Origin: Mesostigma viride
Taxonomy: Eukaryota; Streptophyta; Mesostigmatophyceae; Mesostigmatales; Mesostigmataceae
Direction of reading: 5' to 3'
Length of the DNA: 64,000 nt
Assembly: GCA_009746045.1 (NCBI GenBank)
Contig: RPFO01000448.1
Coordinates: forward strand, 3,268,049 to 3,332,048
Every line of letters starts with the position of its first letter. Position 1 is the stretch's first letter. Of this stretch, positions 31,478 through 53,969 are shown in pieces. Under the pieces are notes generated by a model. The model saw only the letters and a list, made by a program, of their open reading frames with translations. It was not told the DNA's origin and searched no databases. The position numbers and the translations under genes are program-made.

Positions 31478-31732
31478 CTGCGACATCAATTAACATCGAG
31501 CGAGCAACGACAAAACTCGTTCATAAAAGGCGAGGGGTATAGCTGCGGATAGACCCTAATAAAATTCGAAAAAGAAACGGCCGACAATACGCAACGAAAA
31601 TTCCAACAAAAAAAAGGAGAGGGTCTAGCTGCAGCGAGACCCTCGCAAAAAACTTGAAGCGCACACAAAAAACAACCACGAAAATTCCGAGGGTCTACCC
31701 GCAGCTAGACCCTGCCAAAATAGATAGCTTAC
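31478..31732 (-). other. Gene A intron 7 with three palindromes
   Basis: Phase-0 intron (GTAAGC ... TCGCAG) containing 22-bp palindromes at 31534-31555, 31621-31642 and 31691-31712, spaced 70-87 bp apart. Confidence 0.75.
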
Positions 31733-31783
31733 ATCTTCTTTTGCCTTAGGTAGATTTCGCAGCTCACTCCACGACGGGAGCAG
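31733..31783 (-). CDS. Gene A exon 7, 3' portion
   Basis: Sixteen codons ending LRNLPKAKED before a GTAAGC donor. Joined to 38975-40092 with one copy of the AG duplication removed, the exon is 1,167 bp (389 codons) and closes in phase 0, matching the next exon. Confidence 0.75.
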
Positions 31784-32140
31784 CACTATACTATAAATTT
31801 ACGGCCCGTACACGTATACGGAAATTTTTACGGGCCGTAAATTTTGCGTTCGTACGCATATACTTACCACTCGTATACTGGCCGTAAAATTTACTACCGT
31901 ATACTTTTTCTCGTATACGGCAGTAAAGTTTACGGTAGTAAATTTTACGGCCAGTATACGAGAAAAAATTTACGGTAGTAAATTTTACGGCCAGTATACG
32001 AGAAAAAATTTACGGTAGTAAATTTTACGGCCAGTATACTAGAAAAAGTATACGGTAGTAAATTTTACAGCAAGTATACTAGAAAAAGTATACGGTAGTA
32101 AAAGTTTACGGCCAGTATACTGGACAAGTATACGGGCCGT
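31784..32140. repeat. Left TIR and subterminal palindrome array
   Basis: After the TIR, about ten repeats built from GTATACGG, TAGTAAATTTTACGG and CCAGTATAC combine into overlapping palindromes. The spacing is about 40-50 bp. Confidence 0.85.
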
Positions 32141-32339
32141 AACCTTGTGATTTGTCCAACCTAGTGTATTGTGATTTGCGTTGTCATTTGACTTCATGGA
32201 AACATCATGTGGCAATAATTCAAATTAATTAATCAATTATCAATCATTCAAATTAATGAAGAAACACATTATACTACTAAGAAACACACTAGTTGAATTA
32301 ACCCTTATCAATCATTCAAATTTCCCAGAGCATCAGCTC

Positions 32340-32720
32340 CACGACGTACGCGAAAATATGCCGAGCTATGGCTGCCGAGAATGCTCATAACTTTCGACTC
32401 AGGCCATGAAATTTAGTCGGGTTTGTTGCATTCGACTCGTCTTCTGATGACAAACACGCTGGTATAATTTCCGGCAGCTATCGTCCCCGATTTCGTACGT
32501 TCTCGACCTCGGCATGCCCAGCAGATATCGCTATTTTCGACTCGATATGGCGGCATTCCCTTCGTGAATAGCACGCCTGCGCCCCCCGCCCCAGCATTCG
32601 ACATCTTCCCCGTAGCTATGGAGGCCCCAACAACACCTGCCGCCCCAGAAACCCGGTCGCTGGACGACGTTCTTGCCGCAGCCAGCCCTTTCGTCGGCAT
32701 CGCTCCCGCCGCTCCCAAGT
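32340..32720 (+). other. LINE 5'-monomer-like segment inside the nested element
   Basis: GCTCATAACTTTCGACTC...AAATTTAGTCGGG...TTGCATTCGACTCGTCTTCT...CACGCTGGTAT parallels the LINE 5' monomers at 23.2-23.5 kb. It is followed by a short proline/alanine-rich region. No intact ORF. Confidence 0.5.
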
Positions 32721-35700
32721 AGCCAAAGGAACTTAGGTAATGCAACGAGGGAGGGAAGCTAAGCAAGGGAGGGGAGGAAAGCTACTAAGGGAGAGGGAGG
32801 AAAGCTACGGGCATTAAGCTATGGGATATGAAAGGGGAGGGGAAGGAAGCTAAAGGAACTTAGGTAATGCAAGGAAGGAGGGAAGCTAAGAAAGTGAGGG
32901 GAGGAAAGCTACTAAGGGAGAGGGAGGAAAGGGAAGGGCATTAAGCTATGGGATATGGGAGGGGAGGGGAAGGAAGCTAAAGGAACTTAGGTAATGCAAG
33001 GAAGGAGGGAAGCTAAGAAAGGGAAGGGGAGGAAAGTTACTAAGGGAGAGGGAGGAAAGGGGAGGGAAGCTAAGATGGGAGGGGAGGGGAAGGAAGCTAA
33101 AGGAACTTCGGTAATGCAAGGAAGCCCCCAAGCTAAGAAAGGGAAGGGGAGGAAAGCTACTTAGAAGGGAGAGGGAGGAAAGGGGAGGGAAGCTAAGGGA
33201 TGGGAGGGGAGAGGAAGGAAGCTAAAGGAACTTAGGTAATGCAAGGAAGGAGGGAAACTAAGAAAGGGAAGGGGAGGAAAGCTACTAAGGGAGAGGGAGG
33301 AAAGGGAAGGGCATTAAGCTATGGGATATGGGAGGGAAGGGGAAGGAAGCTAAAGGAACTTAGGTAATGCAAGGAAGGAGGGAAGCTAAGAAAGGGAAGG
33401 GGAGGAAAGTTACTAAGGGAGAGGGAGGAAAGGGGAGGGAAGCTAAGATGGGAGGGGAGGGGAAGGAAGCTAAAGGAACTTCGGTAATGCAAGGAAGCCC
33501 CCAAGCTAAGAAAGGGAAGGGGAGGAAAGCTACTTAGAAGGGAGAGGGAGGAAAGGGGAGGGAAGCTAAGGGATGGGAGGGGAGAGGAAGGAAGCTAAAG
33601 GAACTTAGGTAATGCAAGGAAGGAGGGAAACTAAGAAAGGGAAGGGGAGGAAAGCTACTAAGGGAGAGGGACGAAAGGGAAGGGCATTAAGCTATGGGAT
33701 ATGGGAGGGGAGGGGAAGGAAGCTAAAGGAACTTAGGTAATGCAAGGAAGGAGGGAAGCTAAGAAAGGGAAGGGGAGGAAAGTTACTAAGGGAGAGGGAG
33801 GAAAGGGGAGGGAAGCTAAGATGGGAGGGGAGGGGAAGGAAGCTAAAGGAACTTCGGTAATGCAAGGAAGCCCCCAAGCTAAGAAAGGGAAGGGGAGGAA
33901 AGCTACTTAGAAGGGAGAGGGAGGAAAGGGGAGGGAAGCTAAGGGATGGGAGGGGAGAGGAAGGAAGCTAAAGGAACTTAGGTAATGCAAGGAAGGAGGG
34001 AAACTAAGAAAGGGAAGGGGAGGAAAGCTACTAAGGGAGAGGGACGAAAGGGGAGGGAAGCTCAGGGATGGGAGGGGAGAGGAAGGAAGCTAAAGGAACT
34101 TAGGTAATGCAAGGAAGGAGGGAAACTAAGAAAGGGAAGGGGAGGAAAGCTACTAAGGGAGAGGGAGGAAAGGGAAGGGCATTAAGCTATGGGATATGGG
34201 AGGGAAGGGGAAGGAAGCTAAAGGAACTTCGGTAATGCAAGGAAGGAGGGAAGCTAAGAAAGGGAAGGGGAGGAAAGTTACTAAGGGAGAGGGAGGAAAG
34301 GGGAGGGAAGCTAAGATGGGAGGGGAGGGGAAGGAAGCTAAAGGAACTTCGGTAATGCAAGGAAGCCCCCAAGCTAAGAAAGGGAAGGGGAGGAAAGCTA
34401 CTTAGAAGGGAGAGGGAGGAAAGGGGAGGGAAGCTAAGGGATGGGAGGGGAGAGGAAGGAAGCTAAAGGAACTTAGGTAATGCAAGGAAGGAGGGAAACT
34501 AAGAAAGGGAAGGGGAGGAAAGCTACTAAGGGAGAGGGACGAAAGGGAAGGGCATTAAGCTATGGGATATGGGAGGGGAGGGGAAGGAAGCTAAAGGAAC
34601 TTAGGTAATGCAAGGAAGGAGGGAAGCTAAGAAAGGGAAGGGGAGGAAAGTTACTAAGGGAGAGGGAGGAAAGGGGAGGGAAGCTAAGATGGGAGGGGAG
34701 GGGAAGGAAGCTAAAGGAACTTCGGTAATGCAAGGAAGCCCCCAAGCTAAGAAAGGGAAGGGGAGGAAAGCTACTTAGAAGGGAGAGGGAGGAAAGGGGA
34801 GGGAAGCTAAGGGATGGGAGGGGAGAGGAAGGAAGCTAAAGGAACTTAGGTAATGCAAGGAAGGAGGGAAACTAAGAAAGGGAAGGGGAGGAAAGCTACT
34901 AAGGGAGAGGGACGAAAGGGGAGGGAAGCTCAGGGATGGGAGGGGAGGGGAAGGAAGCTAAAGGATCTTAGGTGCTGCAAGGAAGGAGGGAAGCTAAGAA
35001 AGGGAAGGGGAGGAAAGCTACTAAGGGAGAGGGACGAAAGGGGAGGGCATTAAGCTATGGGACATGGGAGGGGAGGGGAAGGAAGCTAAAGGAACTTAGG
35101 TAATGCAAGGAAGGAGGTAAGCTAACAAAGGGAAGGGGAGGAAAGCTACTTAGAAGGGAGAGGGACGAAAGGGGAGGGAAGCTCAGGGATGGGAGGGGAG
35201 AGGAAGGAAGCTAAAGGAACTTAGGTAATGCAACGAGGGAGGGAAGCTAAGCAAGGGAGGGGAGGAAAGCTACAAAGGGAGAGGGAGGAAAGGGAAGGGC
35301 ATTAAGCTATGGGATATGGGAGGGGAGGGGAAGGAAGCTAAAGGAACTTAGGTAATGCAAGGAAGGAGGGAAGCTAAGAAAGGGAAGGGGAGGAAAGTTA
35401 CTAAGGGAGAGGGAGGAAAGGGGAGGGAAGCTAAGATGGGAGGGGAGGGGAAGGAAGCTAAAGGAACTTCGGTAATGCAAGGAAGCCCCCAAGCTAAGAA
35501 AGGGAAGGGGAGGAAAGCTACTTAGAAGGGAGAGGGAGGAAAGGGGAGGGAAGCTAAGGGATGGGAGGGGAGAGGAAGGAAGCTAAAGGAACTTAGGTAA
35601 TGCAAGGAAGGAGGGAAACTAAGAAAGGGAAGGGGAGGAAAGCTACTAAGGGAGAGGGACGAAAGGGGAGGGAAGCTCAGGGATGGGAGGGGAGGGGAAG

Positions 35701-36155
35701 GAAGCTAAAGGATCTTAGGTGCTGCAAGGAAGGAGGGAAGCTAAGAAAGGGAAGGGGAGGAAAGCTACTAAGGGAGAGGGACGAAAGGGGAGGGCATTAA
35801 GCTATGGGACATGGGAGGGGAGGGGAAGGAAGCTAAAGGAACTTAGGTAATGCAAGGAAGGAGGTAAGCTAACAAAGGGAAGGGGAGGAAAGCTACTTAG
35901 AAGGGAGAGGGACGAAAGGGGAGGGAAGCTCAGGGATGGGAGGGGAGAGGAAGGAAGCTAAAGGAACTTAGGTAATGCAACGAGGGAGGGAAGCTAAGCA
36001 AGGGAGGGGAGGAAAGCTACAAAGGGAGAGGGAGGAAAGGGAAGGGCATTAAGCTATGGGATATGGGAGGGGAGGGGAAGGAAGCCATAGGAACTTAAGT
36101 AATGCAAGGAAGGAGGGAAGCTAAGAAGGGAGGGGAGGGGAGGGAAGCTAGCGGC
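32715..36155. repeat. GA-rich satellite with 373-bp higher-order repeat
   Basis: A basic unit of about 120-125 bp (GGAAGCTAAAGGAACTTAGG...GGTAATGCAAGGAAGG...) in sets of three. The recurrence is exactly 373 bp around 32.9-33.9 and 34.2-34.6 kb, and a 747-bp block repeats at about 34.85 and 35.6 kb. Minus-strand frames of 61 aa (repeated identically) are artefacts. Confidence 0.95.
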
Positions 36156-37185
36156 CCACATGCATCTCTCCCTCGACAAGGAACAAGCGCATGCACCCAC
36201 CCACCCCACATGCACCCCTCCCTTTACAAGAAACAAGCATGTGGGCCCACCTACTGCAATGCATCCCTCCCTTGATAAAGAACACACACATGCACCCACC
36301 CACCGCGCATGCATCCCTCCCTTGACAAGGAAGAAGCATGTGCACCCACCCCACCTGCGTCCCTCCCTTGACAAGGAACAATTTCATGCACCCACCCACC
36401 CACATGCATCTCTACCTTGACAAGGAACAAGAGCATGCACCTACCCACCGGGCATGCATCCCTCCCTTGACAAGGAACAAGCATGTGTACCCACCCACCC
36501 CACATGCATCCCTCCCTTTACAAGAAACAAGCACGTGAACCCACCTCATGCACAAGCATCCCTCCCTTGATAAGGAACAAGCACGTGCACCCACCCACCC
36601 CACATGCACCCCTCCCTTTACAAGAAACAAGCATGTGGGCCCACCTACTGCAATGCATCCCTCCCTTGATAAAGAACACACACATGCACCCACCCACCGT
36701 GCATGCATCCCTCCCTTGACAAGGAAGAAGCATGTGCACCCACCCACCCCACCTGCGTCCCTCCCTTGACAAGGAACAAGCGCATGCAGCCACCCACCCC
36801 ACATGCAGTCCTCCCTTTACAAGAAACAAGCACGTGCACCCACCTACTGCACATGCACCCCTCCCTTGACAAGGAACAAGCGCGTGCACCCACCCACCCC
36901 ACATGCATCCCTCGACAAGGAACAAGCGCGTGCACTCACCCACCCCACATGCATCCCTCCTTTGACAAGGAAAAAGCACGTGCAACCACCCACCCCACGT
37001 GCATCCCTCCCTTGACAAGGAACAAGCACGTGCACTCACCCACCCCACATGCATCCCTCCTTTGACAGGAAAAAGCACTTGCACTCACCCACCCCACATG
37101 CATCCCTCCCTTGACAGGGAAAAAGTGCGTTCACCCACCCACCCACACGCATTCCTCTCTTGACAACGAACAAGCACGTGAACCT
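36156..37185. repeat. Minisatellite of ~60-bp units (CATGCATCCCTCCCTTGACA)
   Basis: About 17 units containing CATGCATCCCTCCCTTGACA, AGGAACAAGC and GTGCACCCACCCACCCCA. A larger block of about 390 bp is duplicated (36213-36370 versus 36601-36760). Confidence 0.95.
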
Positions 37186-38529
37186 ACCTACCCACTAGCA
37201 TGGCACGAAGGCATACCATACAATAGCATGGCGTTGCCAAAGCGAAAAAAGAGATCTCGGTGGGGAGAAATTGCCCAGCAAAACTGACAACCATGCAAGG
37301 CAAAAAACTTGAATAACTTACGGTGGACATCGGCACATAATGAGTAGCCCAGATGTGCCGGGTGTAGAGTAAACGAGGCCGAAAATGTCGTGTAACTCAA
37401 AGGCATCTTTAGTAGCCTGTCAAGCGACGGGAACGAGTGGAAACCTGAAGAATGGCAAAAGACATTAAGTCGACTGCCATACATAAAAGATAGAGAATCA
37501 GTAGTACACAGCTCCCCTCATGGAGCAGTAAGCAAATGAGCGATGATTAACAAAGTGTGAGACAGATAGCCGATGCGACTCCTTGCGACTAAACGTGGCA
37601 TGCATATGCGGGCGCTGATTAGGAACATTGGCTTACTTTGTTTAGCGTAATGCGATTGCAGTAGCTTCGTGAAATGCCGCATGCGCACGATGTCACGAAA
37701 TTTAAATTTCCTTTAGGAACAAAGACGAACAAATTGATGTAGCTGGCTAAGGACTACGCCATGGTAGGCTAGCTGTATCGGAGAGAGCGCTGTAGATGGC
37801 TGGAAAAATGATAACTCAATCATGCTAAACTGCGGCTCCAAAGGCTTGTCCTAGTGCGCCTTTGGCTTTCTTCTTCTTCAGGCGCAATAAGCCCGCGATT
37901 CTTTTTTAGTCCAAATATTCTTTCACCACTACTGACCGGCTGGCGACTGCAAATCGGCATGGCCGGCTAATTATGAGGCAAGCGTTGCAAGGGCAGACGC
38001 TTGTGATCGTTGATAAATTCGAAAAATCGTTCTCGCCCGGCGCGGCGGTTCACAACTCCCCACCTGCAAACTCGACTAGCACAGGTACGGGGGCGTTCCT
38101 GAAACCAGTCCCGTACACGCAACCGTTCTATCCGGCCCTCGGCAAATATAGAATCTCTGCTGCACTTCCGCGGCGTGGGACACAACAACAACAACAACAA
38201 CTTCCGCGGCGTGGGATTCAACTAACTAACTAACTAACTTCCGCGGCGTGGGAACCAACAACAAGAACAAGAACAAGAACAAGAACAAGAACAACACGCA
38301 ACCGCTCTGTGCCGTACCTAGAACGGGACGAGTACAAGACCGTATCGGCCAGTATAGATTCTCTGCTGCCCATGTGCGGCGTGGGACACAACAACAACAA
38401 CAACAACAACAAGACCCTAACCGGGGACTGTTTCGGTTACGGCCCCGTACTAGGCTCGGTTCGGTGTACGCGGCGTGTACGTAGCGTGACATTAATTCTA
38501 GTGGACGCCAAGTGGACGTAAAAAATGGC
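37186..38529. other. Mixed region of the nested element, no gene
   Basis: No ORF with recognisable content. At 38165-38420 there are copies of GCGGCGTGGGACACAACAAC followed by (CAA)n, (AACTAACT)n and (AAGAAC)n. The same GCGGCGTGGGACACAAC motif occurs in the palindrome at 63.2/63.5 kb. Confidence 0.6.
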
Positions 38530-38974
38530 CTGTAAGGCATACGACACAAAGTATACTTGCCGTAAATGTTACGGCCCGTATACTTTGTGTCGTTTACGGT
38601 AGTAAATTTACTGCAGCATACGACACAAAGTATACGGGCCGTAAAGTTTACGGCCCGTATACTTTTTGTCGTATACTAAAGTAAAATTTACTAAAGTATA
38701 CGACAAAAAGTATACGGTAGTAATTTTTACGGCCCGTATACTTTTTTTCGTATACTAAAGTAAACTTTACTAAAGTATACGACAAAAAGTATACGGGCCG
38801 TAAAGTTTACTAAAGTATACGACAAAAAGTATACGGGCCGTAAACTTTACGGCCCGTATACTTTTTGTCGTATATTGAAGTAAAGTTTACGTAACGTATA
38901 CGGAGCCCGTATACGTTTACGGGCCGTATACGGGGCCCGTATACGTGTACGGGCCGTAAGTTTATAGTATAGTG
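38530..38974. repeat. Right subterminal palindrome array and TIR
   Basis: A mirror of the left array: units such as AAAGTATACGGGCCGTAAAG and TTTACGGCCCGTATACTTTT (hairpin arms) separated by GTCGTATACTAAAGTAAA. It ends with the right TIR. Confidence 0.85.
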
Positions 38975-40092
38975 AGGTCGCCACCCTTGAGAAGAATGAC
39001 GTTCGTACCCATGTAACCACCACGGAATTTCCGCAACAGGTCCTGGAATGCGTGCTCCGCCTCCTTAGGAGTATTTGCGAAATTGGACTCCGCCCCACCC
39101 TCGCACATCATTGCCCGAACCTCTCCCCACCCGCCATCCGGCCCCCTGAGAAACGACTTTAACCCCTTAAAGTAGTGGTTCCCATCCACCACCGCGTACC
39201 GGAGAACCAGATACGGTACCGGTACCCGTTCCTCAAAAAATTTCGGATCGTAGGACTTCATCGCAGTATTGCACAGCAGGTTGAAAACTTGCCGACTGCC
39301 CTCGATCTCCTGAGGCAAAACTGCTTCCACCTCGTCCACCCTGGCGTAGGTACGCCACTCAAGTCCTCTCGCGAGGAAAGAGGTGGTGGACTCCGTGTTA
39401 ATCCACACGTCGACTTCAGTATCCGAAAGGGGCCGGAAGTACCTGGACCCCACATCCTCCGCGTCAATCTTGGCGCCGTGGTGATGCTTCAGCCACTTGA
39501 CGAAATCCGGCATGCACAAGATTTGCTTGTCGAAAAGGTCAGGTTGAGATTCGGCAAGCGCCTGGAAAGGGAACTGCCAGACCGGGACAACAACCTTGAA
39601 GTGCAAGGCGTTGTCCCGCGCATTGAGGAGAATGTGGCCGTTCTCCTTAATGGTTTCAAGGTTTAAACGCCGCTGCCTCAAAGCCTCTGGCAAAATAAGC
39701 GCGTTGACCGTCTGGATCCGCATACTGAAACATCCGGTCTGCTTAAAATCGGCCGGCCGAATCCAACGCGTTTCCCTGAGAGTATTGGCCTTCCGGATGT
39801 TCTGGTCCCTGACCTCCTTGTTCGAGTCGACCTTTTTCGAAGGCTTCCAGCTTTCAATGATAGGGTCGGTGTCCGGGTTCCCACTGCTCGTGAGCACCCC
39901 CTCCTTAAAAAGCTTGTTGAGTGACCGGAGCAGCTCAAGAAAGGGGGAGAACTCGGGCCAGTTTGGCAGGTCATCGACGTCCGCCATCCGCCTACTCGAG
40001 CAGTACTTGACCATATCCTTCACCAGCGCGAACACGGCGTCATGACCAGGTAACTTCTTCTCCACCGTGGCGTCTTCGTCCCCCCCGTCATC
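38975..40092 (-). CDS. Gene A exon 7, 5' portion (interrupted)
   Basis: 373 codons of globular sequence from DDGGDEDATVEKKLPG to GTNVILLKGGDL, where a 7.2-kb element interrupts it. As it stands, three further residues and a stop come from the inserted element's TIR. The frame resumes at 31783. Confidence 0.75.
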
Positions 40093-40229
40093 CTGAAGTA
40101 AAAAATCGAAAAGGACCGCAGGATTTGCTCAAGTCAGTAATCTTTAGGCCGACCACGACATCCTGTTCAGGGACGAACAAAGTTCTGTTGGAATAGTACC
40201 TTACTGACACTAAACACAAAGTCCCGCAG

Positions 40230-40262
40230 CCGGTCAGCGTCTACCCGCAGCGAGAGGTCTAA
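40230..40262. repeat. Palindrome variant in gene A intron 6
   Basis: GCGTCTACCCGCAGCGAGAG, a degraded member of the 22-bp family. A further variant (GTCTCTCTGCGGAGATACCC) lies at about 40886-40905 in intron 5. Confidence 0.6.
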
Positions 40263-40281
40263 ATTTTCACAACAATCGTAC

Positions 40282-40824
40282 CTGTCCAGTTTTCTGCTGC
40301 TTCTTGGCCTCCTTAGCCTTCTCCTTCTCCGCCTTCTTCGCCTCCTTCTCCGCCGCCTTCGCCTCCGCGTTCTTCTTACTGTTGGCCTTTGCCACCGCAT
40401 TCAGCGCCCTTTTTCCCTCAGCGGCCCGACGACGAAAATCAGCCTTCATGAATTTCTCGATCTTGTCAACCTTTGCCTCTGAGTACTCCTTAGGCTGCCA
40501 CTTGAAATTCTTGGTGGCTTTCGACTTCACCAGATTTGCGAATTCATATGCCAATTCACTCTTAAAGGTAGCGTCACCCAACACCTCCGTATCGAAATCG
40601 GCATCGACTTCCGCCTCAAGTCGTGTCAGGTACTTGCGAAACTCGGACCCCGCAGGTCCCTCCGAATCGACGCCATCGGGCGGAGACTTAAGCATGATCA
40701 GGCCAACAGCAATAATATGATCCTTCGCAACCTTCTTGCGGGAATCCAGCTTTTCCCTTTCATGCTCAGTCAATGGAGGCTTCGCCGCCTTCCCCCCCGC
40801 AGTACCCCCAGCGACAGCCCCCGC
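40282..40824 (-). CDS. Gene A exon 6
   Basis: 181 codons, AGAVAGGTAGGKAAKPP to KKQQKTGQ. A central globular part (FRKYLTRLEAEVDADFD, LAYEFANLVKSKATKNFKW) is followed by a K/A/E-rich helix (residues about 140-178) likely to be a coiled coil. Confidence 0.7.
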
Positions 40825-40950
40825 CTGCATTACAAAAAAAAACGAACAAGAAGGGACTTGACCTCAGTTCGATTGTTGCACCATCGTCTCTCTGCGGAGA
40901 TACCCCTCAGCACGAAAAAAATCACACGAACTCGCGGCGGATGAACGTAC

Positions 40951-41466
40951 CTGCACAGCCACTTCTCCCTCAGCGTCTCCCCCATCCTCATCTCCTCCAG
41001 CGTTTTCATCCCCCCCATCCTCATCTCCTCCAGCGTTTTCTTCCTCTCCGGCAGCGCCTGCTGAGGCCAAACCCCCCGCCTGTCAACACCGAATACGACA
41101 GCTCATTGGAAATCAAAATTAGTCGATATTTGTATATTTCGCATAATGCGCTCACTAAAACTTCAGGCGAAATGCAGACATCCGGATATCGTTTAATGCT
41201 TACCATTTCCATCTCGAGTCCAGACCAAATACCAGCACTGTCAACAGCCATCGCCGCAGCCGCCCCCTGAAAAAAGACAACAGATTGGTTGGGGGCACCG
41301 TTGAAATTAGCCGAACATGTCAGTCTCAATAAAAGGGTGAGGGTCTACCTGCAGCTAGACCCCATGTAAGATGCTCGTGGAAACTCGACGGACAAGCACC
41401 CACCTTATCAACCAAGTCTGACAAATTAGGTAAATCCTCCGATACGTCCCCTGGCATGGAGCCCCC
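40951..41466 (-). CDS. Gene A exons 3-5 (short exons)
   Basis: Exon 3 (41404-41466, 21 codons), exon 4 (41204-41266, 21 codons) and exon 5 (40951-41079, 43 codons). All are phase 0 with clean splice sites. Exon 5 encodes tandem ENAGGDEDGGD repeats, an acidic glycine-rich linker. Confidence 0.65.
41341..41362. repeat. 22-bp palindrome in gene A intron 3
   Basis: GGGTCT-AC-CTGCAG-CT-AGACCC: outer hexamers and central PstI-like hexamer conserved. Confidence 0.85.
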
Positions 41467-41573
41467 CTGCATGATATGACAGGACAAACCATGAAGGTTG
41501 GTCAGCATATAGAGCCCTATTCAGGGAATGGAAACAACCCAAATCGATAAACGATATCGGCAAGTTAACGTAC

Positions 41574-42623
41574 CGAAACGTAGAACTTCCACCTCCTCAA
41601 AATCTTCCCCAAAGGCCATATCGGCACTTGATGGGCTCTCTCCTTTTCCAGTTGCCGCCTCAATTCCGCCTCGAAGAACAACTCGAGGGACTGCCAATGG
41701 CCTCCCGCCTCTAAATCAGACCACTCCGTGTCTGTCTTGGTTCGGATACTCTGGAGACAATCAACCAACGAGATTTGATCCAACCATTCCTGGACGACTT
41801 CCCGGTATGGCTTATATGTCTGAATAACATGGAAGTCCTCCCGGTGCCGGAAACTTTGGATCACCTGTCCAGCCCAATCCAAAAAGAAAGCGACCGCTTC
41901 CCGCGAAAGGCTGGCGTCCGGGCTGACAAGAAAGTCAGTCCGCCACTTAACAAAAGATTGCAGTAAGTGGTCTCTTGCCATGTCCAAATGCGCGATCACT
42001 TCATGTGCGCGCTCCTCCAATCCTCCTACGTCATTCATTCTTCCCGGCACAATTACGATATAGTCACTGTTGGACGTGTCAACAAATCCTTGCCTGACAA
42101 TATCAAACACTTCATCTTCCGACAGTGAAGCCCTCGAATCCGCTCTCATATCTCCAGTCATGAGTTTAAAGAGCTGATGCAACGCAGTGGTTTTCAAGGT
42201 TTCCATATAGGAAGCCTCGATGCATGTGAAGCCAATGTGGACCTCGAACTTTTCAACCTCATCAAAGAGCGTCGACCATATTAAAGCACGACGGGGAAAG
42301 TAACGTCCGACATCCTCCTTCAGATTAAGGATGCACGACTGCGCGATCTTCAAAACCTCATACATGTCGTCACCAACGACCCTCTTCCCATGAATGGCTC
42401 GCTGTGTGGCTTCGAACAATGCAAGACGGCCCAGGCGGTCGTTCTTCCAAATTATGTCTGCCGACTCCGGACGGTCCACGACGACACCGGACTTCTCTGC
42501 AAACGCTATCTCGGCCGAAAGAAAGCGGATCAAGCCTCTCAAGCCCTTTTCGGCTTTACGACTCACCCCAGACTCAGACTCAGCCTGAGCCAGGTACTGT
42601 TTCAGAATGGCCAGCGTGTCGGG
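41574..42623 (-). CDS. Gene A exon 2 (globular, unknown)
   Basis: 350 uninterrupted codons starting PDTLAILKQYLAQAESES and ending RRWKFYVS. Alpha-helical looking, with hydrophobic and charged periodicity and no low-complexity stretch. A palindrome sits in the upstream intron at 42691-42712. No family recognised. Confidence 0.75.
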
Positions 42624-44003: not shown

Positions 44004-44069
44004 CTGCAGAACAATATCAAAAAAGCAAGTTTCACAAATGTCATTCAGAATCTGAATCGCCGGCAGAAA

Positions 44070-44550
44070 AACGATGGGGAGGGTCTCGCTGCAGCTAGAC
44101 CCTTTCGTGGATTCTAAAAGGGACATTTAGTTTAATGCAAAACTTTGGCGTCTCGCTGCAGCGAGACCCTCACTTCAAGCAAAAACAAATCATTTTTAGG
44201 GTGAGCGTAAACAAGCAACCTCCCATCATGCAAACATAAAAAAGTATACATTCCTTGGGGTCTCGCTGCAGCGAGACCCTAACGTCAAACAAAAACAAAT
44301 AATTTTTAGGGTGAGCGAAGAAAGCCCCCTCCCATCTTGCAAACATTAAAAGTCGACATTCGTAGGGGTCTCGCTGCAGCGAGACCCTAACACCGATACA
44401 AAAACAAATCATTTTAAGGGTGAGAAAAGAAAGACCCCCCATCATGAAAACATGAAAAATTGACATTCCTTGGGGTCTCGCTGCAGCGAGACCCTAACGT
44501 CAATACAAAAACAAAATTCCGAGGGTCTACCCGCAGCGAGACCCTTACGA
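44070..44550. repeat. Six palindromes at ~107-bp spacing upstream of gene A
   Basis: Palindromes at 44081-44102, about 44148-44169, 44258-44279, 44366-44387, 44473-44494 and 44523-44544. Four of them share spacers containing AAAACAAATCATTTTTAGGGTGAGC and CTCCCATCATGCAAACAT, so this is a tandem repeat rather than a CRISPR array. It lies just upstream of gene A's first exon. Confidence 0.9.
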
Positions 44551-44559
44551 CCACGTATA

Positions 44560-45222
44560 AATACATGTGGGGGGGGAAGCTACGTATAAATACATGTGGG
44601 GGGGGATGCTATGTATAAATGCATGTGGGGGGGTGCTGGCATTAATAATTAAATGTGGGGGGGTGATGGCATGAATAAATAAATGTGGGGGGGTGCTGCC
44701 ATGAATAAAAGAATGTGGGGGTGTGATGGCATGAATAAATGAATGTTGGGGGGTGCTGGCATTAATAATTAAATGTGGGGGGGTGATGGCATGAATAAAT
44801 AAATGTGGGGGGGTGCTGCCATGAATAAAAGAATGTGGGGGTGTGATGGCATGAATAAATAAATGTGGGGGGTGCTGCCATGAATAAAAGAATGTGGGGG
44901 GGTGCTGCCATGAATAAAAGAATGTGGGGGTGTGATGGCATGAATAAATGAATGTTGGGGGGTGCTGGCATTAATAATTAAATGTGGGGGGGTGATGGCA
45001 TGAATAAATAAATGTGGGGGGGTGCTGCCATGAATAAAAGAATGTGGGGGTGTGATGGCATGAATAAATGAATGTTGGGGGGTGCTGGCATTAATAATTA
45101 AATGTGGGGGGTGATGGCATGAATAAATAAATGTGGGGGTGTGCTGCCATGAATAAAAGAATGTGGGGGGGTGATGGCATTAATAATTAAATGTGGGGGG
45201 ATGATGGCATGAATAAATAAAT
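44560..45222. repeat. Minisatellite, G-rich on plus strand
   Basis: Units of about 31 bp alternate GAATAAATAAATGTGGGGGG + GTGATGGCAT and GAATAAAAGAATGTGGGGG + TGCTGCCAT variants. The first units (ATAAATACATGTGGGGGGG) are the reverse complement of the array on the right. Confidence 0.95.
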
Positions 45223-47428
45223 GATACGTAGCATCACCCCCCCACATGTATTGATACGTAGCATCACCCCCCCACGTGTATTAATACGTAGCATCCCCCC
45301 CACATGTATTGATACGTAGCAGCACCCCCCCACATGTATTGATACGTAGCAGCACCCCCCCACATGTATTGATACGTAGCAGCACCCCCCCACATGTATT
45401 GATACGTAGCATCCCCCCACACATGTATTGATACGTAGCAGCACCCCCCCACATGTATTGATACGTAGCAGCACCCCCCCACATGTATTGATACGTAGCA
45501 GCACCCCCCACATGTATTGATACGTAGCAGCACCCCCCCACATGTATTGATACGTAGCAGCACCCCCCACATGTATTGATACGTAGCAGCACCCCCCACA
45601 TGTATTGATACGTAGCAGCACCCCCCCACATGTATTGATACGTAGCAGCACCCCCCCACATGTATTGATACGTAGCACCCCCCCACATGTATTGATACGT
45701 AGCAGCACCCCCCACATGTATTGATACGTAGCAGCACCCCCCCACATGTATTGATACGTAGCAGCACCCCCCCACATGTATTGATACGTAGCAGCACCCC
45801 CCCACATGTATTGATACGTAGCAGCACCCCCCCACGTGTATTGATACGTAGCAGCACCCCCCCACATGTATTGATACGTAGCAGCACCCCCCCACATGTA
45901 TTGATACGTAGCAGCACCCCCCCACATGTATTGATACGTAGCAGCACCCCCCCACATGTATTGATACGTAGCACCCCCCCACATGTATTGATACGTAGCA
46001 GCACCCCCCCACATGTATTGATACGTAGCAGCACCCCCCACATGTATTGATACGTAGCAGCACCCCCCACATGTATTGATACGTAGCAGCACCCCCCCAC
46101 ATGTATTGATACGTAGCAGCCCCCCCACATGTATTGATACGTAGCAGCACCCCCCACATGTATTGATACGTAGCAGCACCCCCCCACATGTATTGATACG
46201 TAGCAGCACCCCCCACGTGTATTGATACGTAGCAGCACCCCCCCACGTGTATTGATACGTAGCAGCACCCCCCCACATGTATTGATACGTAGCAGCACCC
46301 CCCCACATGTATTGATACGTAGCAGCACCCCCCCACATGTATTGATACGTAGCATCCCCCCCACACATGTATTGATACGTAGCAGCACCCCCCCACATGT
46401 ATTGACACGTAGCAGCACCCCCCCACATGTATTGATACGTAGCAGCACCCCCCACATGTATTGATACGTAGCAGCACCCCCCCACGTGTATTGATACGTA
46501 GCAGCACCCCCCCACATGTATTGATACGTAGCATCCCCCCACACATGTATTGATACGTAGCAGCACCCCCCCACATGTATTGATACGTAGCAGCACCCCC
46601 CCACATGTATTGATACGTAGCAGCACCCCCCCACATGTATTGATACGTAGCAGCACCCCCCCACGTGTATTGATACGTAGCAGCACCCCCCCACATGTAT
46701 TGATACGTAGCAGCACCCCCCCACATGTATTGATACGTAGCAGCACCCCCCACATGTATTGATACGTAGCAGCACCCCCCCACATGTATTGATACGTAGC
46801 ATCCCCCCACACATGTATTGATACGTAGCAGCACCCCCCCACATGTATTGATACGTAGCAGCACCCCCCACATGTATTGATACGTAGCAGCACCCCCCAC
46901 ATGTATTGATACGTAGCAGCACCCCCCCACGTGTATTGATACGTAGCAGCACCCCCCCACATGTATTGATACGTAGCAGCACCCCCCCACATGTATTGAT
47001 ACGTAGCAGCACCCCCCCACATGTATTGATACGTAGCAGCACCCCCCCACGTGTATTGATACGTAGCAGCACCCCCCCACATGTATTGATACGTAGCAGC
47101 ACCCCCCCACATGTATTGATACGTAGCAGCACCCCCCCACATGTATTGATACGTAGCAGCACCCCCCCACATGTATTGATACGTAGCAGCACCCCCCCAC
47201 GTGTATTGATACGTAGCAGCACCCCCCCACATGTATTGATACGTAGCAGCACCCCCCCACATGTATTGATACGTAGCAGCACCCCCCCACATGTATTGAT
47301 ACGTAGCAGCACCCCCCCACGTGTATTGATACGTAGCAGCACCCCCCCACATGTATTGATACGTAGCAGCACCCCCCACATGTATTGATACGTAGCAGCA
47401 CCCCCCCACATGTATTGATACGTAGCAG
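45223..47428. repeat. 31-bp minisatellite, C-rich on plus strand
   Basis: About 70 copies of a 31-bp unit (ACATGTATTGATACGTAGCA + GCACCCCCCC), with the C run varying between 5 and 8. Long minus-strand frames of more than 700 codons across it are pure repeat translations. Confidence 0.98.
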
Positions 47429-47592
47429 CACAATTTTAGTCAGCCTACCATCCACGTTGCGGCAAAAGATCACCTTTTTTTGTGTTTCGGCAAAATGAAG
47501 ATTTCTTGCAAACTATCGTTATGCAGGCAGGTAGCAACGTCCGATGTTATAATCCGGCAGGTAGCATGCAAACGTCGAAACGATATGAAGGG
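47428..47592. repeat. Direct repeat copy 1 (~165 bp)
   Basis: It starts ACAATTTTAGTCAGCCTACC and ends CATGCAAACGTCGAAACGAT. The second copy is at 47992-48156 with about 80 percent visible identity. Confidence 0.85.
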
Positions 47593-47991
47593 GAAAAAAA
47601 GCATCAAACAGGAGCACCGATTAGAAACGCAGCAAATGCAGTATGTGCACATCTACACCTATAACCTAACCAGACCAAAGGCATAGCAAACATGGAAAGG
47701 GTGACCCAAGTGAAAGCCTAGCACCACCATGATCGACATGTGCGAGACCAAGAAACGCTCCATGGCAACTAGACTAAAGGGATGGATGCCAGATGTGGAT
47801 TAGGATCGGCTTAGCTGACTCTACCGAGATGTCTGCAGGGTTTAGCTAGCAACGAAAAGAAGGAAGCCAGACATTTTTATCACTCTTGCTGCAACATAGA
47901 GTTTCTTGCGATGGCAGCAAGGACATGTCTTCGCCCAGCTGGCTAACTGTGTCGTCGGCGTGCATGCGCTGTTTAGTTGCCGTTTTTGATA

Positions 47992-48156
47992 GAACAATTT
48001 TAGTCAGCCTACCATCCAGGATGCGGCAAAAGCTCACCTTTTTTTCGTTGTGCGGCGAAAGCAGACCGATTTCCTTGTAAACTTCCGGCACCAGGCAGGT
48101 ATCAACGTAGGATTTTATAATCCAGCAGGTAGCATGCAAACGTCGAAACGATATGG
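47992..48156. repeat. Direct repeat copy 2 (~165 bp)
   Basis: Second copy of the repeat at 47428. The 400 bp between the copies show no gene. Confidence 0.85.
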
Positions 48157-48476
48157 CAGCTCGTATCAGCTATGGGGTCTCTCTGCGGCTGCGCTTCTTT
48201 TTCGATGGGCGATGGGACGGTCGCAATTCGCAAAACGGACGCGGCGTCACAGGGCTGAACGGTATTGAAAAAATTGGAAACGTGGCATCCTCGTTCCTCC
48301 CCACGGAACTGAAAACTGGAAGCGCGGCGCTGGTGCAAAAGCTCGATCCCATCTTTTGGAACCAAGCTAGCGGATTGGACGACATCCAATATGCCGTCAC
48401 CCGTGCTTGTGGCCGCAGGTATAAAAAGAGACGACCTCCAGCCCATTTACCTGGGAACATTCGGATGTTTGGCTGA
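48153..48476 (+). CDS. Uncertain small ORF, 107 aa
   Basis: MAARISYGVSLRL to HLPGNIRMFG. No family recognised. It contains a degenerate copy of the dispersed palindrome (GGGGTCTCTCTGCGGCTGCG), which elsewhere is non-coding, so this may be chance or an exon upstream of the transposase gene. A B-box-like GGTTCGATTCC follows at 48512. Confidence 0.2.
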   Translation: MAARISYGVSLRLRFFFDGRWDGRNSQNGRGVTGLNGIEKIGNVASSFLPTELKTGSAALVQKLDPIFWNQASGLDDIQYAVTRACGRRYKKRRPPAHLPGNIRMFG

Positions 48477-48479
48477 CAT

Positions 48480-49226
48480 CGTTACCATGCGTCAATGTAC
48501 AATGAGGTTCTGGGTTCGATTCCTGGTGTGGTCATGGAAATAAATTTTTTTCTGCACATCTACTGAAATCAGTCATAGCACCAAACAATCACGCTGCAGC
48601 GAGACGCTATAGCCCTGGAGCCCGCTGATAAACCTGACATCCGGTACGTCTTACTATCATAGATTGCCGAACTATATAATAATAATAGTCTATACCACTT
48701 TTTCTTGTAAATGATTTACTAAATAATGATTCTATATACTTTAACATACCATATTATTAAAGTATGTGGAATTTAACCATGCTATTCACAATATATTATA
48801 AAATCTTTTGCAAAATATACTGTAATTAGTATATATATTTTCTGTCATATTGGCGTCAGCGCTTGTCGGTGGCGCTGACTCGGGCCATGGCTGACATCAT
48901 GCTCCGCCGTACGCGGGCTGATTTTGCGGTGCAGCAGGGCTATTAGGTTCCTCCCGTTAGGCGTTTCCATTGGTCTTATCGTAGTATAGAGCTTTGACAT
49001 GGCTCTGTATATAGGTTCATAGCTGGGCGTTTGCTTTGGTTTGAGTGATTTCACTCTGCTGTAAGTAATTATATTTTTAATATATATTTTCTGATAAACA
49101 ATTTTATCAATGCTACTGTGTTATTTTTGTTATTCTCGCCATGCAGGTATCTGAGTGTTCTGGGAGAACTAATAAGAGAATGAGCCGCGAAGGTGAGGAA
49201 AACCTGAAATCTTTTCGTCCTTATTG
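48480..49226. other. AT-rich intergenic stretch, no gene
   Basis: AT-rich sequence between the minisatellites and the transposase gene. No reading frame or RNA gene is supported. It may include the plus-strand promoter. Confidence 0.5.
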
Positions 49227-49484
49227 GGGTCTCTCTGCAGCTAGACCATTTATAACCACAAGCAATAGCTTAAATTCAAGGGTCTCGCTGCAGCTAGACC
49301 CTCTTTATGGTTGCTATAAAATTAATGAATCAGAAGTCTGTGATTTAACAATCGCACGCCGCAATGAAGGGTCTAGCTGCAGCGAGACCCCAATCTTGGT
49401 CGGGGTATGCTAAGTTCACCACATCAGGTAATCTTTTCGTCTAACGGAAAAAGCCCCTCTAAGGGTCTAGCTGCAGCTAGACCC
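49227..49484. repeat. Four palindromes upstream of the transposase gene
   Basis: 22-bp palindromes at 49227-49248, 49280-49301, 49370-49391 and 49463-49484, the last ending 15 bp before the first ATG of the transposase frame. Position 7-8 dinucleotides differ (CT, CG, AG, AG). Confidence 0.9.
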
Positions 49485-49499
49485 CAATCGTGGTAAAAA

Positions 49500-52400
49500 A
49501 TGATACACTTTCGAACTTTGTCTGTAATTGTCGCTTTTCCCAACGATACTCGATTTGCATGGATTTCGTTGTGCCGGTCGTCATGGCATGCAGCACGCGA
49601 ACGGGTGGGAGTTTTCGCCCTTGCGTCCGGTCGTCCAGGATTCAGTGCAATTAAGTTGAACACCGGGACGAAGCAGTCAACTGGCGCAAAAAGGGTTTTC
49701 GGAGATGAGAACCAGAATCCAGCGCAGCCTGAAGCCAAGGAAGTCAAGCGGCCGGGAGAATACTCGAAATCAAAGAGGGTTATTGGGGAATATTTCGCTG
49801 ACCAGGCGTTTGAAGCGGCTCAGGCGATGACAAAACCCGAGGGGCGGGGGCCGGCTTTCGACCAGATGATTGCTGGCTTTAACTCTAGGGCCGCTGAACT
49901 AGGTCACGGGAAGTATCATGAGGAGGCGAAAAAGCTTTACAATCAGGAGCGGATGGCAGAACTGAACAGGTTCTGGGTGGCTCGGATTAACGGCTTTTTT
50001 GATGGTCTGACCAAAAGCGACGCAGACAGAGACGTCAGGATGGTGCTGATGTCCACGCTTTACTGTGGTGACGACTTGGAGAAGGAGTTTTCGGCCGCGG
50101 AGTTGGAGAACCTGACGGGGATGGACGCCAAGAAGATTCGCGGAATTCGCGCGATACGAAGGCAGCAGAAGTTGGACTACCTCAGACACGCGCAGGCTCG
50201 CAAGGGGCGCCCTTTGCCGCAATTCGTGATTGACGCGATAGTGGACGCGTGGATGCACGATGATGAGTCGCGCGCCTCCTCCCAGATGAAGGATGTCAAG
50301 CGCACTTACAGCAGGGAGGGTCGTGGCAATCACGGGGTGCTCGTCGCCGTTGAGGGAGCGCGCTATTACATGACCTCCAAGGAGGACATGTACAATCACT
50401 TTCTCGAAAAGCATGCGTACTGGAACAAAAGGAGTAACCAGTATGATAAGGACGTGGGCATTCACGTGGGCTACACGACCTTCTGCAAATACGCGCCCGA
50501 TTGCATCAAGGGCAAGTGGAAGGAGAGGAACCTGTGCGCGTGTGAGAAGCACGTCACCATGCAGTCGGCCATGGGGGCGTGGACCAAGCACTCCAATGCG
50601 AACCACGGCAAGAACTGCAAGTGTGGCGCGGAGTGTGCGGGATGCTCCAAGTACAGAGAGCCGGACGGTACTTGCGGAATGTGGAAAGCCATTCACTCGA
50701 CGGACTGGATCAAGCACTTTCACTGCCCGGTGTCCGCCGAGACTGACGGCAGGGATAACGGGCTGCGTGAAGGGGGCGGAATGGGCGGGGGGATGGAAGA
50801 GGGGGAGGGGGAAGATGAATGGCGGGGACGGGACCTGGAAGACCTCGACATTTCTGAGAGGCTGGTGGAGGACGAAGATGGGGTGCCGAGGACGGAGAGG
50901 GTTCACCGCATACTGAAGATGGCGTGTGTGGAGGGGTTCTGTCCTGAGGAATCATGCGGCATCCATAATAACTGGGTGCAGTGTGATCGGGACAAGAATT
51001 CCACGGAGATTCTGAATTGGTTCAAGTTCGAGATGGTGGAGCAGACTGTGACCCGACGGGTGAATGTGAGTTGGTTTCGATTTTATTTCTCCGTTAATAT
51101 GTTGTTGACTTTTTTTTTTGTGACCTATAGCTGCAGCGAGACCCTTTGTGAGTTGCAGTTATCTTATCGAAATGCGATTTTATTGCAAATCGAAACTGTC
51201 TGCGGACCTTTGCGAAACAGGGCGAGACCGATGGCAGGGCGGCGAAGAAGGTGAAGCGGCCCGAGCAAGTCCAAATGAGGTCCACCCCAGCTGAGCTGCG
51301 GGACGAGATTCTTAAGATGTGGGACAAGTTCACCGTGCACTGCTTTACGGCCTGGTCGCAGGCGGATACAATCAAGGATCGGGAGAAGAATCTGAGAGAG
51401 GGGGACGTGCTCGTGCACGGCGACTGGGCCGAGAACTACGAGAACAGCAGCTACGTCCAACTGCAGTCGCAGTACTTCCACAAGCGCAGCCACATCCTGA
51501 TGCCCATGATCGTGCGTTATCGGCTCAACGGCGAGCTGGAAAAGCGCGTCTTCTTTTTCCTGGGGGATTCCAGTATCAAGCGGGGCGAGCGCGCACTCGT
51601 ATACGCTCTTCGCAAGATTCTGGAAACCCTGCGGGTAGAAGTAGGGGTAGAGGTGCGAAACCTGTACATGTGCTCGGACAACTGCGCGGTGCAGTTTAAG
51701 TCCAGGTACGTGATTAACCAGATTAACGGTCTGCTCATGGGGGATCCCGACCTGCAGGCCTTTGAGTTCCACTACATGGGGGAGCAGCATGGGAAGGGGG
51801 AGGTGGATGGTCAAGGAGCGAAGTGCAAGTGCGTCTTGAGGGAAATGCAGAGGATTCCCGAAAACCAGCACATACTTGAGACCCACCAGCTAGTCGCCTA
51901 CTTGAACCAGAACTGGCAGGGCGGCAAGACATCGAGCAGGGAGTCGGCCCGCGCGCGGGCCGAGAACGTCACTCGCCACTTCTTCCTTTTACCCCCGGTA
52001 CGGAATTGTGTGTTATTTCAGGTTTTAAGACGTCAACTGCCGCTGTTCTATAAAAATTCAAACCCAATAAAGGTATCTCTGCAGAGAGACCCTATATACT
52101 GTCAATGGGTTGCTTTTCTTTTAGGTATGAAATTTCGCTTGTTCTATCGGTATGAAGGGGTCTCTCTGCAGCTATACCCTGTGTCGAATTTCGATCACTT
52201 GATATCTTGTCGTACGTTGTTATTATGATTCGAATGGGGTCTCTCTGCAGCTATACCCTGTGTCGAATTTCGATCACTTAATATCTTGTCGTACGTTGTT
52301 ATTATGATTCGAATGGGGTCTCTCTGCAGCTATACCCTGTGTCGAATTTTGATCACTTGATGTCTTGTCGTTATTTTTTTTTTGTAAGGGGTCTCTCTGC

Positions 52401-53228
52401 AGCTATACCCTGTTTTATTGATTTTTGGTCAATTTTGCTAACTTGAACGGTATTCTTTTTGCCCTAACTATTTGATGACAGGACGTCGAGTCCGGCCGAC
52501 GCGCGGAGGTGGAGGAGGTGCCTGGCATCAAGAAGGCGCATTGGTGGCGACTGGACAAGTCCGACCCTGGCCTTTTGATGATTAGGCGCTATTCCTGCTA
52601 CTGTCCGCCCTGTTTGGCTGGGCGGTTTGAGGGATGTCTAAGCGAGTGGTCGTTTATCATCGAGTTCAATGATGCAGGAAGCTCGATGAAAACTGTCCGT
52701 TTGCTGCCACCGAGCCAGCCCAACCCTCCGGTTCGCATGGTGACGCGGGGGGAGCAGCTGAAGGACAAGCGGGAGGCGATGGGCCGGCAGATGAGACTCC
52801 ACGACTATGTGGCAGTTCCATCGGACAAGGACACGGATCACGATCCCATCCACCCGTTCTGGTTGGCTGAGGTTGTAAGCGAAGCCGGGCCGATCGTGTT
52901 AGACGAGAACTTCGAGAGGTGGGTCGAGGGCCGGAACGGACGGGAGAAGGAGCTGTTCCTCGCCGGGAACGGCATTCTTCCCGTTCGGATTTGGAAGCGG
53001 GATAAGCATGACCCCCTGCATTTCACGCTCAACGTTGAGGATTGGCCACCGTCACGCCAGCCCGAGCTTGTGAATTGCTATCTCTGCGTCGCTCCGGCTC
53101 TCCGGCTAGAAGCACGCGTGCGCAGCGACGGAATGTGTGCCGACATCAGGATGAGCAAGGAGCTCGACAAGTGGCTTACTGCGCTGGTGATCAAGGATGA
53201 AGCCCCGGAGGGGCCGGCACCGACTTAA
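49500..53228 (+). CDS. Gene B: DDE-like transposase, 3 exons (~1,029 aa)
   Basis: Exons 49500-51065, 51221-51997 and 52482-53228, with both introns in phase 0 (GTGAGT...ACAG, GTACGG...ACAG). Exon 1 has a Cys-rich region (KNCKCGAECAGC, FCPEESCGIH) that may bind zinc. Exon 2 holds the likely catalytic core, with acidic residues in HGDWAENY (about residue 590), YMCSDNCAVQFKSR (about 675) and HGKGEVDGQGAKCK (about 716). The spacing and the HGKG.xDG.G.K block recall a class of uncharacterised animal transposon proteins with an RNase H-like fold. Exon 3 starts EVPGIKKAHWW and is tryptophan/cysteine-rich. It probably mobilises the whole element. The true start may lie in an upstream exon; the first in-frame Met is used here. 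The frame is intact, unlike gene A. Confidence 0.75.
51066..51220 (+). other. Gene B intron 1 with palindrome
   Basis: The phase-0 intron contains a palindrome variant at 51123-51144 (ACCTAT-AG-CTGCAG-CG-AGACCC). Confidence 0.8.
51998..52481 (+). other. Gene B intron 2 with five palindromes
   Basis: Palindromes at 52071-52092, 52158-52179, 52237-52258, 52317-52338 and 52389-52410. Copies 2-4 are embedded in an 80-bp tandem repeat (TGTGTCGAATTTCGATCACT...). Most right halves here read TATACCC instead of AGACCC, a local variant. Confidence 0.85.
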
Positions 53229-53518
53229 ACAAGAAATTGGGGTCTCGCTGCGGGTAGACGACGCCCTAGTTTCGGCTCGTATTATATCTTTAGAGTGGGG
53301 CTTCAGTAGGGTGTAAAAAGGTGGCCGCATATATTGTATATATTTTTCGAGATCTTTCTGAGGTCAAGTTTAAGGGTAGTTGATAATTTTTTGCGGCCTT
53401 CAATTAACAGTTATTTTTTACTGCAACATAATTTTATGCTGTATATTTAAATAATGATAAGGATTTCGATATTTTTTTGCACAATCTATTCGACATTTGT
53501 TTCTGCATGTCGAGAATT
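53229..53518. other. Downstream region of gene B
   Basis: A degraded palindrome (GGGGTCTCGCTGCGGGTAGA, about 53238-53258) lies directly after the stop codon. AT-rich sequence without a gene follows. Confidence 0.6.
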
Positions 53519-53735
53519 TATTGCTCCACCCCCACAAAAAAAATCGTTCCGGAACTGTTCGAAGCGAATAGCACTGACAGGATTCGAACCCGGGTCCACC
53601 TTAATGTTCGGAGTGAGGTAGGCCAGCCATCATGTTCCGCACTCAAATCTGGCTCGGGTCCGATCCCTCCATTGCTCTTCGCTTCGAACAGCTCCGGAAC
53701 AAGTTAGGTGTGGGGTTGGAGCAATAAATACTTAT
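53515..53735. mobile_element. Foldback (MITE/SINE-like) element of ~215 bp
   Basis: Imperfect inverted arms of about 100 bp: TTTATTGCTCCA-CCCCAC...TTCCGGAACTGTTCGAAGCG on the left against the reverse complement on the right (53673-53735). The minus strand carries a perfect B-box-like GGTTCGAATCC (53580-53590). No complete tRNA fold could be drawn. Confidence 0.65.
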
Positions 53736-53945
53736 TTGCCGGGCGCAGTTGTCATTCCGCCTAGTACAATTGCGTCACTAGTACAATTTTTGTCTGGGTA
53801 CGGTACGAACCAATAACGCAATATTTAGTATCTAATCGCCGCTGCTCTTGCTGAATTTTATCCGGAAGCTGAAAAAGGTGTCCGGTGAAGCGAATACTAG
53901 TGACTGGTGGTCGTGCCCTTCCATTACTCCTTATCGACAAATTTT

Positions 53946-53969
53946 GGGTTCTACCTGCAGTTATAACCC
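53946..53969. repeat. Degenerate palindrome upstream of small ORF C
   Basis: GGGTTCTACCTGCAGTTATA + ACCC keeps the CTGCAG core and the outer GGGT/ACCC. Confidence 0.6.

Follow-up and report, generated by a model that had tools for sequence, protein, structure and literature searches.

The window analysed here is a stretch of 64,000 nucleotides of the Mesostigma viride genome (contig RPFO01000448.1, positions 3,268,049 to 3,332,048). It holds a whole copy of a 28.6-kb DNA transposon, delimited by terminal inverted repeats (TIRs), a 4-bp target-site duplication and comparison with four other large copies (A to D). Two nested elements and a minisatellite lie within it. Its two large genes, AB and the transposase gene, are divergent, and the minisatellite lies between them. 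A palindromic word, here called the dyad, is scattered over the transposon (Table 1). The sequence-only reading had reported these palindromes together with matched variation at their unspecified (NN) positions. The palindromes proved real, and the matched variation did not hold.

With up to three mismatches to the pattern GGGTCTNNCTGCAGNNAGACCC, 24 matches were found in the 64 kb, against a mean of 0.05 and a maximum of 1 in 100 shuffled sequences. This agreed with the earlier count of about 25 dispersed copies. The working set (n = 26) consisted of 23 of the 24 matches plus three weaker intronic copies with four to five mismatches (40237, 40884 and 51123). Raising the limit to five mismatches gave 33 rows, of which those at 22779, 27298, 30294, 32668, 38091, 48586 and 57162 were left out. 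Removal of five tandem copies from the 26 left 21 independent copies, or 42 half-sites.

The match left out at 30294 (three mismatches) lies in nested element 2. It was taken for a chance resemblance; its core CTGCTG is not palindromic. A near-identical word is present in both copies of nested element 2 within large copy B. Except for this match, the earlier statement that the nested elements are free of the palindrome stood. The site at 48586 is probably a real one that has decayed, since copies A, B and C hold a better version of it. A degenerate dyad with five mismatches, one half of it perfect, lies at 27298-27319 in the AB coding region.

Table 1. Coordinates of the transposon, its genes and its dyads, numbered from the first nucleotide of the window.
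Feature	Position	Strand	Remarks
Whole transposon copy, 28,639 bp	26297..54935		from TIRs, 4-bp duplication and copies A-D; includes two nested elements and minisatellite
Target-site duplication GGCG, left	26293..26296	+	
Target-site duplication GGCG, right	54936..54939	+	
Left TIR	26297..26369	+	first 24 bp same at both ends
Right TIR	54872..54935	-	
Gene AB	26592..44004	-	large, multi-exon; broken up by nested elements; frame breaks
Transposase gene	49141..53229	+	exons 49141-49192, 49594-51065, 51221-51997, 52482-53229; models P0001, P0002; putative RNase H-like core
Small open reading frame, gene C	54050..54487	+	no Pfam match
Dyad, AB coding exon	28050..28071	+	2 mismatches; inside open frame
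Dyad, AB intron	31535..31556	+	2 mismatches
Dyad, AB intron	31621..31642	+	exact
Dyad, AB intron	31691..31712	+	1 mismatch
Weak dyad, AB intron	40237..40258	+	5 mismatches
Weak dyad, AB intron	40884..40905	+	4 mismatches; also in copies A, B, C
Dyad, AB intron	41341..41362	+	exact
Dyad, AB intron	42691..42712	+	3 mismatches
Dyad, upstream of AB start codon	44081..44102	+	exact
Dyad, 107-bp tandem array	44148..44169	+	1 mismatch
Dyad, 107-bp tandem array	44258..44279	+	exact
Dyad, 107-bp tandem array	44366..44387	+	exact
Dyad, 107-bp tandem array	44473..44494	+	exact
Dyad, upstream of AB	44523..44544	+	1 mismatch
Decayed dyad, upstream of transposase	48586..48607	+	outside the 26; 5 mismatches here, 3 in copies A, B, C
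Dyad, transposase intron 1	49227..49248	+	1 mismatch
Dyad, transposase intron 1	49280..49301	+	exact
Dyad, transposase intron 1	49369..49390	+	exact
Dyad, transposase intron 1	49463..49484	+	exact
Dyad, transposase intron 2	51123..51144	+	4 mismatches
Dyad, transposase intron 3	52071..52092	+	2 mismatches
Dyad, 79-bp tandem array in intron 3	52158..52179	+	1 mismatch
Dyad, 79-bp tandem array in intron 3	52237..52258	+	1 mismatch
Dyad, 79-bp tandem array in intron 3	52316..52337	+	1 mismatch
Dyad, 79-bp tandem array in intron 3	52389..52410	+	1 mismatch
Dyad, just past transposase stop codon	53240..53261	+	3 mismatches
Dyad, before gene C	53947..53968	+	3 mismatches

Nearly all the dyads (25/26) were non-coding, when placed on gene models that were partly read by eye. 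At least one was present in 8 of the 11 introns (5/8 in gene AB and 3/3 in the transposase gene), where six of eight had been proposed. The claim that the palindromes are confined to non-coding parts thus held for all copies except the one in a coding exon of AB. Presence in coding exons at an equal rate had been named as a sign against the observation; it amounted to 1/26. Among the independent copies 1/21 was exonic, far below random placement over 10,815 bp of exons and 6,060 bp of other non-coding DNA (P = 1.8e-8). The minisatellite contained none of the 26, and neither did the terminal non-coding DNA beside the two ends (294 bp and 448 bp). A single orientation of the copies was considered and rejected (asymmetry test, P = 0.62).

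In the 42 half-sites, T3, T5, C8 and G10 were constant. Position 4 was C or A, position 6 A or C, position 9 T or C, and the flanking base A or G. Because the search pattern left positions 6 and 7 and the flanking base unspecified, the narrow choice of bases at position 6 and in the flank does not come from the search itself. Over 27 distinct sites from three element types (see below), T3 was kept in 53/54 half-sites, T5 in 54/54, C8 in 52/54, G10 in 54/54, and A or C at position 6 in 52/54.

When the 33 observed changes were spread evenly over the nine fixed positions, four positions remained unchanged in 0/20,000 draws. The same draw gave P = 0.009 for 16 independent changes and P = 0.13 for 11. 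The strength of this test therefore depends on how many of the changes were independent.

The two halves of a dyad varied independently. Left and right agreed at 190 of 252 places (12 half-site positions in the 21 independent copies), compared with 190.5 (standard deviation 4.8) when halves were permuted, and at 241/324 compared with 241.5 for the 27 distinct sites. A base-pair counter showed no excess of double changes (11 cells, 12.2 after shuffling). Standard pairs made up 79.6%, against 80.2% in shuffled halves. The argument from matched changes therefore falls, and the independence speaks for two subunits, each contacting one half, and not for a hairpin.

A role of the dyads as intronic RNA hairpins or DNA cruciforms, the former among the earlier suggestions, would fit the dyad symmetry and the fact that both halves changed together between families (see below). 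Pairs with a double change also numbered 6, against 4.6 after shuffling, a number reached in 86/500 shuffles and thus not significant. Against it, covariation was absent within the family, and of the 21 copies 12 had a mismatched pair at position 6 and 11 at position 7. We regard this explanation as very improbable.

Sequence constraint was examined by comparing 27 palindrome places (48586 included) with the other non-coding bases in copies A to D. Between the window and copy B, 4/552 palindrome bases had changed, compared with 165/4433 others (P = 1.9e-5). With copy D the figures were 2/288 and 78/2309 (P = 0.0045). Within the 107-bp array, 1/24 palindrome columns varied, compared with 24/82 of the others (P = 0.007).

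In the 439.9-Mb assembly, the exact dyad occurred at 1837 places and a reversed control at none. The first 50 of these were classified: 33 lay in large copies of the transposon, 17 in miniature inverted-repeat transposable elements (MITEs) and none elsewhere. One of the 17, at C1:7391307, lay in a divergent MITE holding just one exact dyad. An equal density outside the elements would have counted against the sequence-only reading; in this sample 0/50 lay outside the family. Copy A carried 26 dyads (up to four mismatches), and their places were the same in copies A and B, except for one tandem unit fewer in B.

These distributions bear on two other explanations. According to the first, the dyad is a self-spreading mini-palindrome, of the kind known from some mitochondria and plastids, that inserted repeatedly; the sequence-only reading had listed it. 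PMC7235400 describes short GC-rich palindromes in introns and spacers of green algal organelles, and the Mesostigma dyads resemble these in base composition and location. They differ in lying in a DNA transposon, in belonging to one family in the sample checked, in being constrained position by position and in showing no sign of independent movement. Flanking matches were only 0-4 bases in the 21 independent copies, with no consistent duplication, and the places agree between A and B. The suggestion fails on these points, and we find it hardly credible. According to the second, the dyads are host sites that the transposon copied and that a host transcription factor binds. This is quite improbable, as the first 50 places all fell within the family and the motif differs between two transposase families of one host (see below).

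The 24-bp transposon end, with up to two mismatches, occurred 466 times (control, 0). Of these places 100 were listed, and 34 loci beside listed exact ends were fetched: 10 were MITEs, and the other 24 were ends of larger elements or were cut by contig ends. The MITEs, about 586 bp long, have the ends of the large transposon. Their left 131 bp match its right end, and the likeness stops just short of the first dyad. All 10 hold two dyads, at distances of 132 and 204 bp from the ends. Of these 20 dyads, 19 matched exactly at the 18 fixed bases, and the remaining one had a single change of an allowed kind. A MITE (L007:7013-7598) lies about 100 bp past the right end of large copy A.

End pairs about 10.3 kb apart recurred among the end places listed. 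Two such elements were fetched (C36 and C80), and each carried 22 dyads in two arrays (up to four mismatches), with spacing alternating between 57 and 63 bp. Their interior differs from that of the large element, save for terminal stretches. No gene was evident in the open reading frame list of C36, whose frames were not searched for homology. The 10.3-kb element (L046, L048) looks as if minisatellites and dyad arrays were laid out in it as one giant inverted repeat. A further copy of 16.1 kb (C224), lacking the front part of the transposase, still had 21 dyads (up to four mismatches).

Thus three element types with common ends and 4-bp duplications, of 20.7 kb, 10.3 kb and 586 bp, all have dyads, although outside terminal stretches their interiors differ. 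Dyads were also present in each same-ended derivative that was inspected over its whole length (10 MITEs, the 16.1-kb copy and both 10.3-kb copies). The number rises with element length, from 2 in 0.6 kb to 22 in 10.3 kb and 26 in 20.7 kb. Were the dyads operators for the element's own two large genes only, the clusters upstream of the AB start codon and in transposase intron 1 would be accounted for. Dyads also lie far inside the genes, and they are kept in MITEs and in the 10.3-kb element without evident gene (frames not searched for homology). We consider this explanation improbable.

A sister family was available for comparison. The window transposase was 100% identical to model P0001 (Mesvir1/24345) over 89% of the region searched, and 63% identical to P0002 (Mesvir1/2005); P0001 and P0002 aligned at 58%. 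A search with P0002, in which 45 of 1621 candidates were scored, gave 130 matches; the 45 exon-2 matches were 97-100% identical. From these sequences the P0002 transposon family, with at least 45 nearly identical copies, looks very young. A scan of one locus (L067; up to five mismatches) found three dyads in transposase intron 1 and two in intron 3; a second (L073) gave the same hits (two of ten loci scanned).

Position 5 was T in 2/12 half-sites of the P0002 family, compared with 42/42 in the window family (P = 3e-9), and in 2/10 when one site picked by eye was left out. The scan pattern required T at position 5, so the search bias opposed the observed shift. Exon 2 of the two families was 68.5% identical over a stretch of 1134 columns. 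When the introns were compared between families by blastn, each match at E < 0.01 included a dyad, and many such matches joined introns that do not correspond. This suggested that the dyads outlasted almost all other intron sequence while their specificity changed.

The transposon ends are GGGTGGTCCC..., with inverted ends of about 64-73 bp. TIRs and a fixed 4-bp target duplication, traits of DDE-type elements, were found here, the duplication being identical in 9/10 MITEs, C36, C80, A, C224 and the window copy. Copy A (contig C1) is 20,658 bp long with the duplication CTAA/CTAA and, judged by match spacing, lacks both nested elements at the window positions. The insertion target of the 28.6-kb transposon was a repeat resembling a long interspersed nuclear element (LINE). 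The transposon region is flanked by LINE-like sequences that resemble each other and point in opposite directions (23389-25358 and 56087-59204).

Gene AB runs on the minus strand from 44004 to about 26592, its 3' limit being approximate. It contains tandem peptide repeats and several frame breaks, and pieces of it had only sub-cut-off Pfam matches, the best being RecQ_Zn_bind (E 0.022) on the piece 30653-31373. The transposase exons matched no Pfam family at E <= 0.5, and the whole transposases gave only weak matches to DUF7869 and TniQ. A DN-C-x-x-Q-x-K signature points to a possible likeness to Sola transposons.

The minisatellite (44551-47432) has a 30-bp unit in two blocks of opposite polarity, with higher-order repeats. 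One nested element (31784-38974) has ends CACTATACTATAAA and many ATACGGGCCGTAA repeats, and is missing from the corresponding position in copies A, B and C224. Nested element 2 (28943-30650), with ends CTTAACCCCTAAATGG, has two more copies elsewhere inside large copy B.

Subterminal and repeated internal sites for element proteins occur in CACTA (En/Spm) and P elements. CACTA ends begin with CACTA, and the target duplications are of 3 bp. The Mesostigma dyads are unlike these sites in having no copy close to the large element's ends and in extending over 26 kb, introns included. Membership in CACTA was rejected from the GGGTGG ends and the 4-bp duplications. A CACTA-like model of terminal sites was also set aside, no dyad being near the large element's ends.

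A likeness was seen to the VANC motifs of Arabidopsis VANDAL transposons. These lie in introns, intergenic and other non-coding parts and are multiplied by tandem repeats, according to PMC5735166. They differ between related VANDAL families, as PMC5735166 and PMC10398659 describe. Like the VANC21 and VANC6 motifs, the Mesostigma dyads are mostly non-coding, introns included, and are tandem-multiplied: in the 107-bp and 79-bp arrays and at the 57/63-bp spacing, with unit number varying between copies. Their sister families also differ, by the shift at position 5. Unlike the VANC21 motif, the 9-base YAGTATTAY, the Mesostigma word is a 24-bp dyad, present also in the MITE and the 10.3-kb element. 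The host, too, is a unicellular streptophyte alga, the duplications are of 4 bp, and no VANC or Mutator-type protein was detected by Pfam. We do not claim that the transposon is a VANDAL. Sola2 elements have 4-bp duplications, those described in PMC3627910 being AT-rich. The Mesostigma duplications share the length and are mixed, not AT-rich.

We interpreted the dyads as predicted cis-acting sites for a two-subunit protein, likely encoded by the element and most likely keeping its chromatin open, and give this reading a probability of roughly 0.6. It is based on the restricted degeneracy of the sites, the independence of their halves, the slower change in 2/4 copy comparisons, the retention in derivatives without evident genes and the shifted sister motif. 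The data suggest docking sites for a protein that aids survival or movement of the element. This protein probably coevolves with the family, judging from sequence comparison, and would hence probably be element-encoded. Among the three earlier suggestions (binding sites, hairpins or a mobile palindrome), binding sites for an element-encoded protein was the best supported; the interpretation as a whole was supported in part.

On this interpretation, one subunit would read the half-site purine-GGG-T-C/A-T-A/C-N-C-T/C-G. Candidates for the binder are the gene AB product and the transposase. Local tandem duplication may multiply the dyads in non-coding parts, sparing the proteins. By analogy with VANC, protein bound along the element could open chromatin, with anti-silencing and activation. 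Methylation as such is present: M. viride DNA contains 5-methylcytosine, with CG the most abundant site (PMC6947507).

Alternatively, the dyads could be sites of the transposase or an accessory protein serving transposition itself, either in synapsis or by compacting a long element, and would then play no part in silencing. Such a function would suit their occurrence in elements with common ends, whether large, 10.3 kb, 586 bp or shortened by deletion to 16.1 kb, and the position of the MITE dyads 132 and 204 bp from the ends. It accords poorly with the lack of dyads in the large element's terminal non-coding stretches (294 and 448 bp), with ends that themselves have no such dyad, and with a span of 26 kb clustered in introns and at gene starts. 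We consider it unlikely, while giving it real weight. The anti-silencing reading is drawn from dyads that run through the large element, leaving the stretches beside its ends free, and from counts that go up with the length of the element type. These features favour a role for the whole element over end pairing and are not proof of it.

Several observations weighed against the predicted protein sites and their proposed function. Comparison with copy A gave no significant constraint (palindromes 2/552, others 35/3985, P = 0.15), nor did copy C, with five sites aligned only (4/120 and 76/2105, P = 0.57). In the ten MITEs the result was marginal (1/470 and 57/5390, P = 0.047), and in the 79-bp array (0/24 and 11/49, P = 0.008) it was partly owed to the array boundary. 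The half-site rules came from the same copies used in testing, except for the 10.3-kb and MITE sites. At L067 of the sister family, the intron 2 dyad, one of six sites, was the one picked by eye, and introns 2 of the two families had no mutual blastn match below E 0.01. Gene AB showed no Pfam family above cut-off, and the homologue search with its exon 7 was without match. Direct use in transposition would also explain retention in MITEs, and anti-silencing is proposed by analogy.

It is possible, and we hold it only tentatively, with the odds against it, that sequence-specific anti-silencing evolved independently in this lineage, the earliest to diverge among the streptophytes. A dimer encoded by the element would then mark the whole transposon through its scattered dyads, the gene-less MITEs and the 10.3-kb relative would bear the same mark and share the protection, and within one genome protein and dyad would have diverged into two or more specificities. 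VANDALs already illustrate the working principle. In the literature searched, no description was found of the dyad motif, its occurrence in the MITE and the 10.3-kb element, the host or the transposase family.

Here the internal non-coding DNA of a transposon family is built around a single predicted protein site, in a system limited enough to be tested. With the two sister motifs, coevolution of a transposon protein with its sites can be tested directly. If the VANC-like function is true, element-encoded anti-silencing would exist beyond flowering plants and reach derivatives without genes, and would help to explain the spread of the MITEs.

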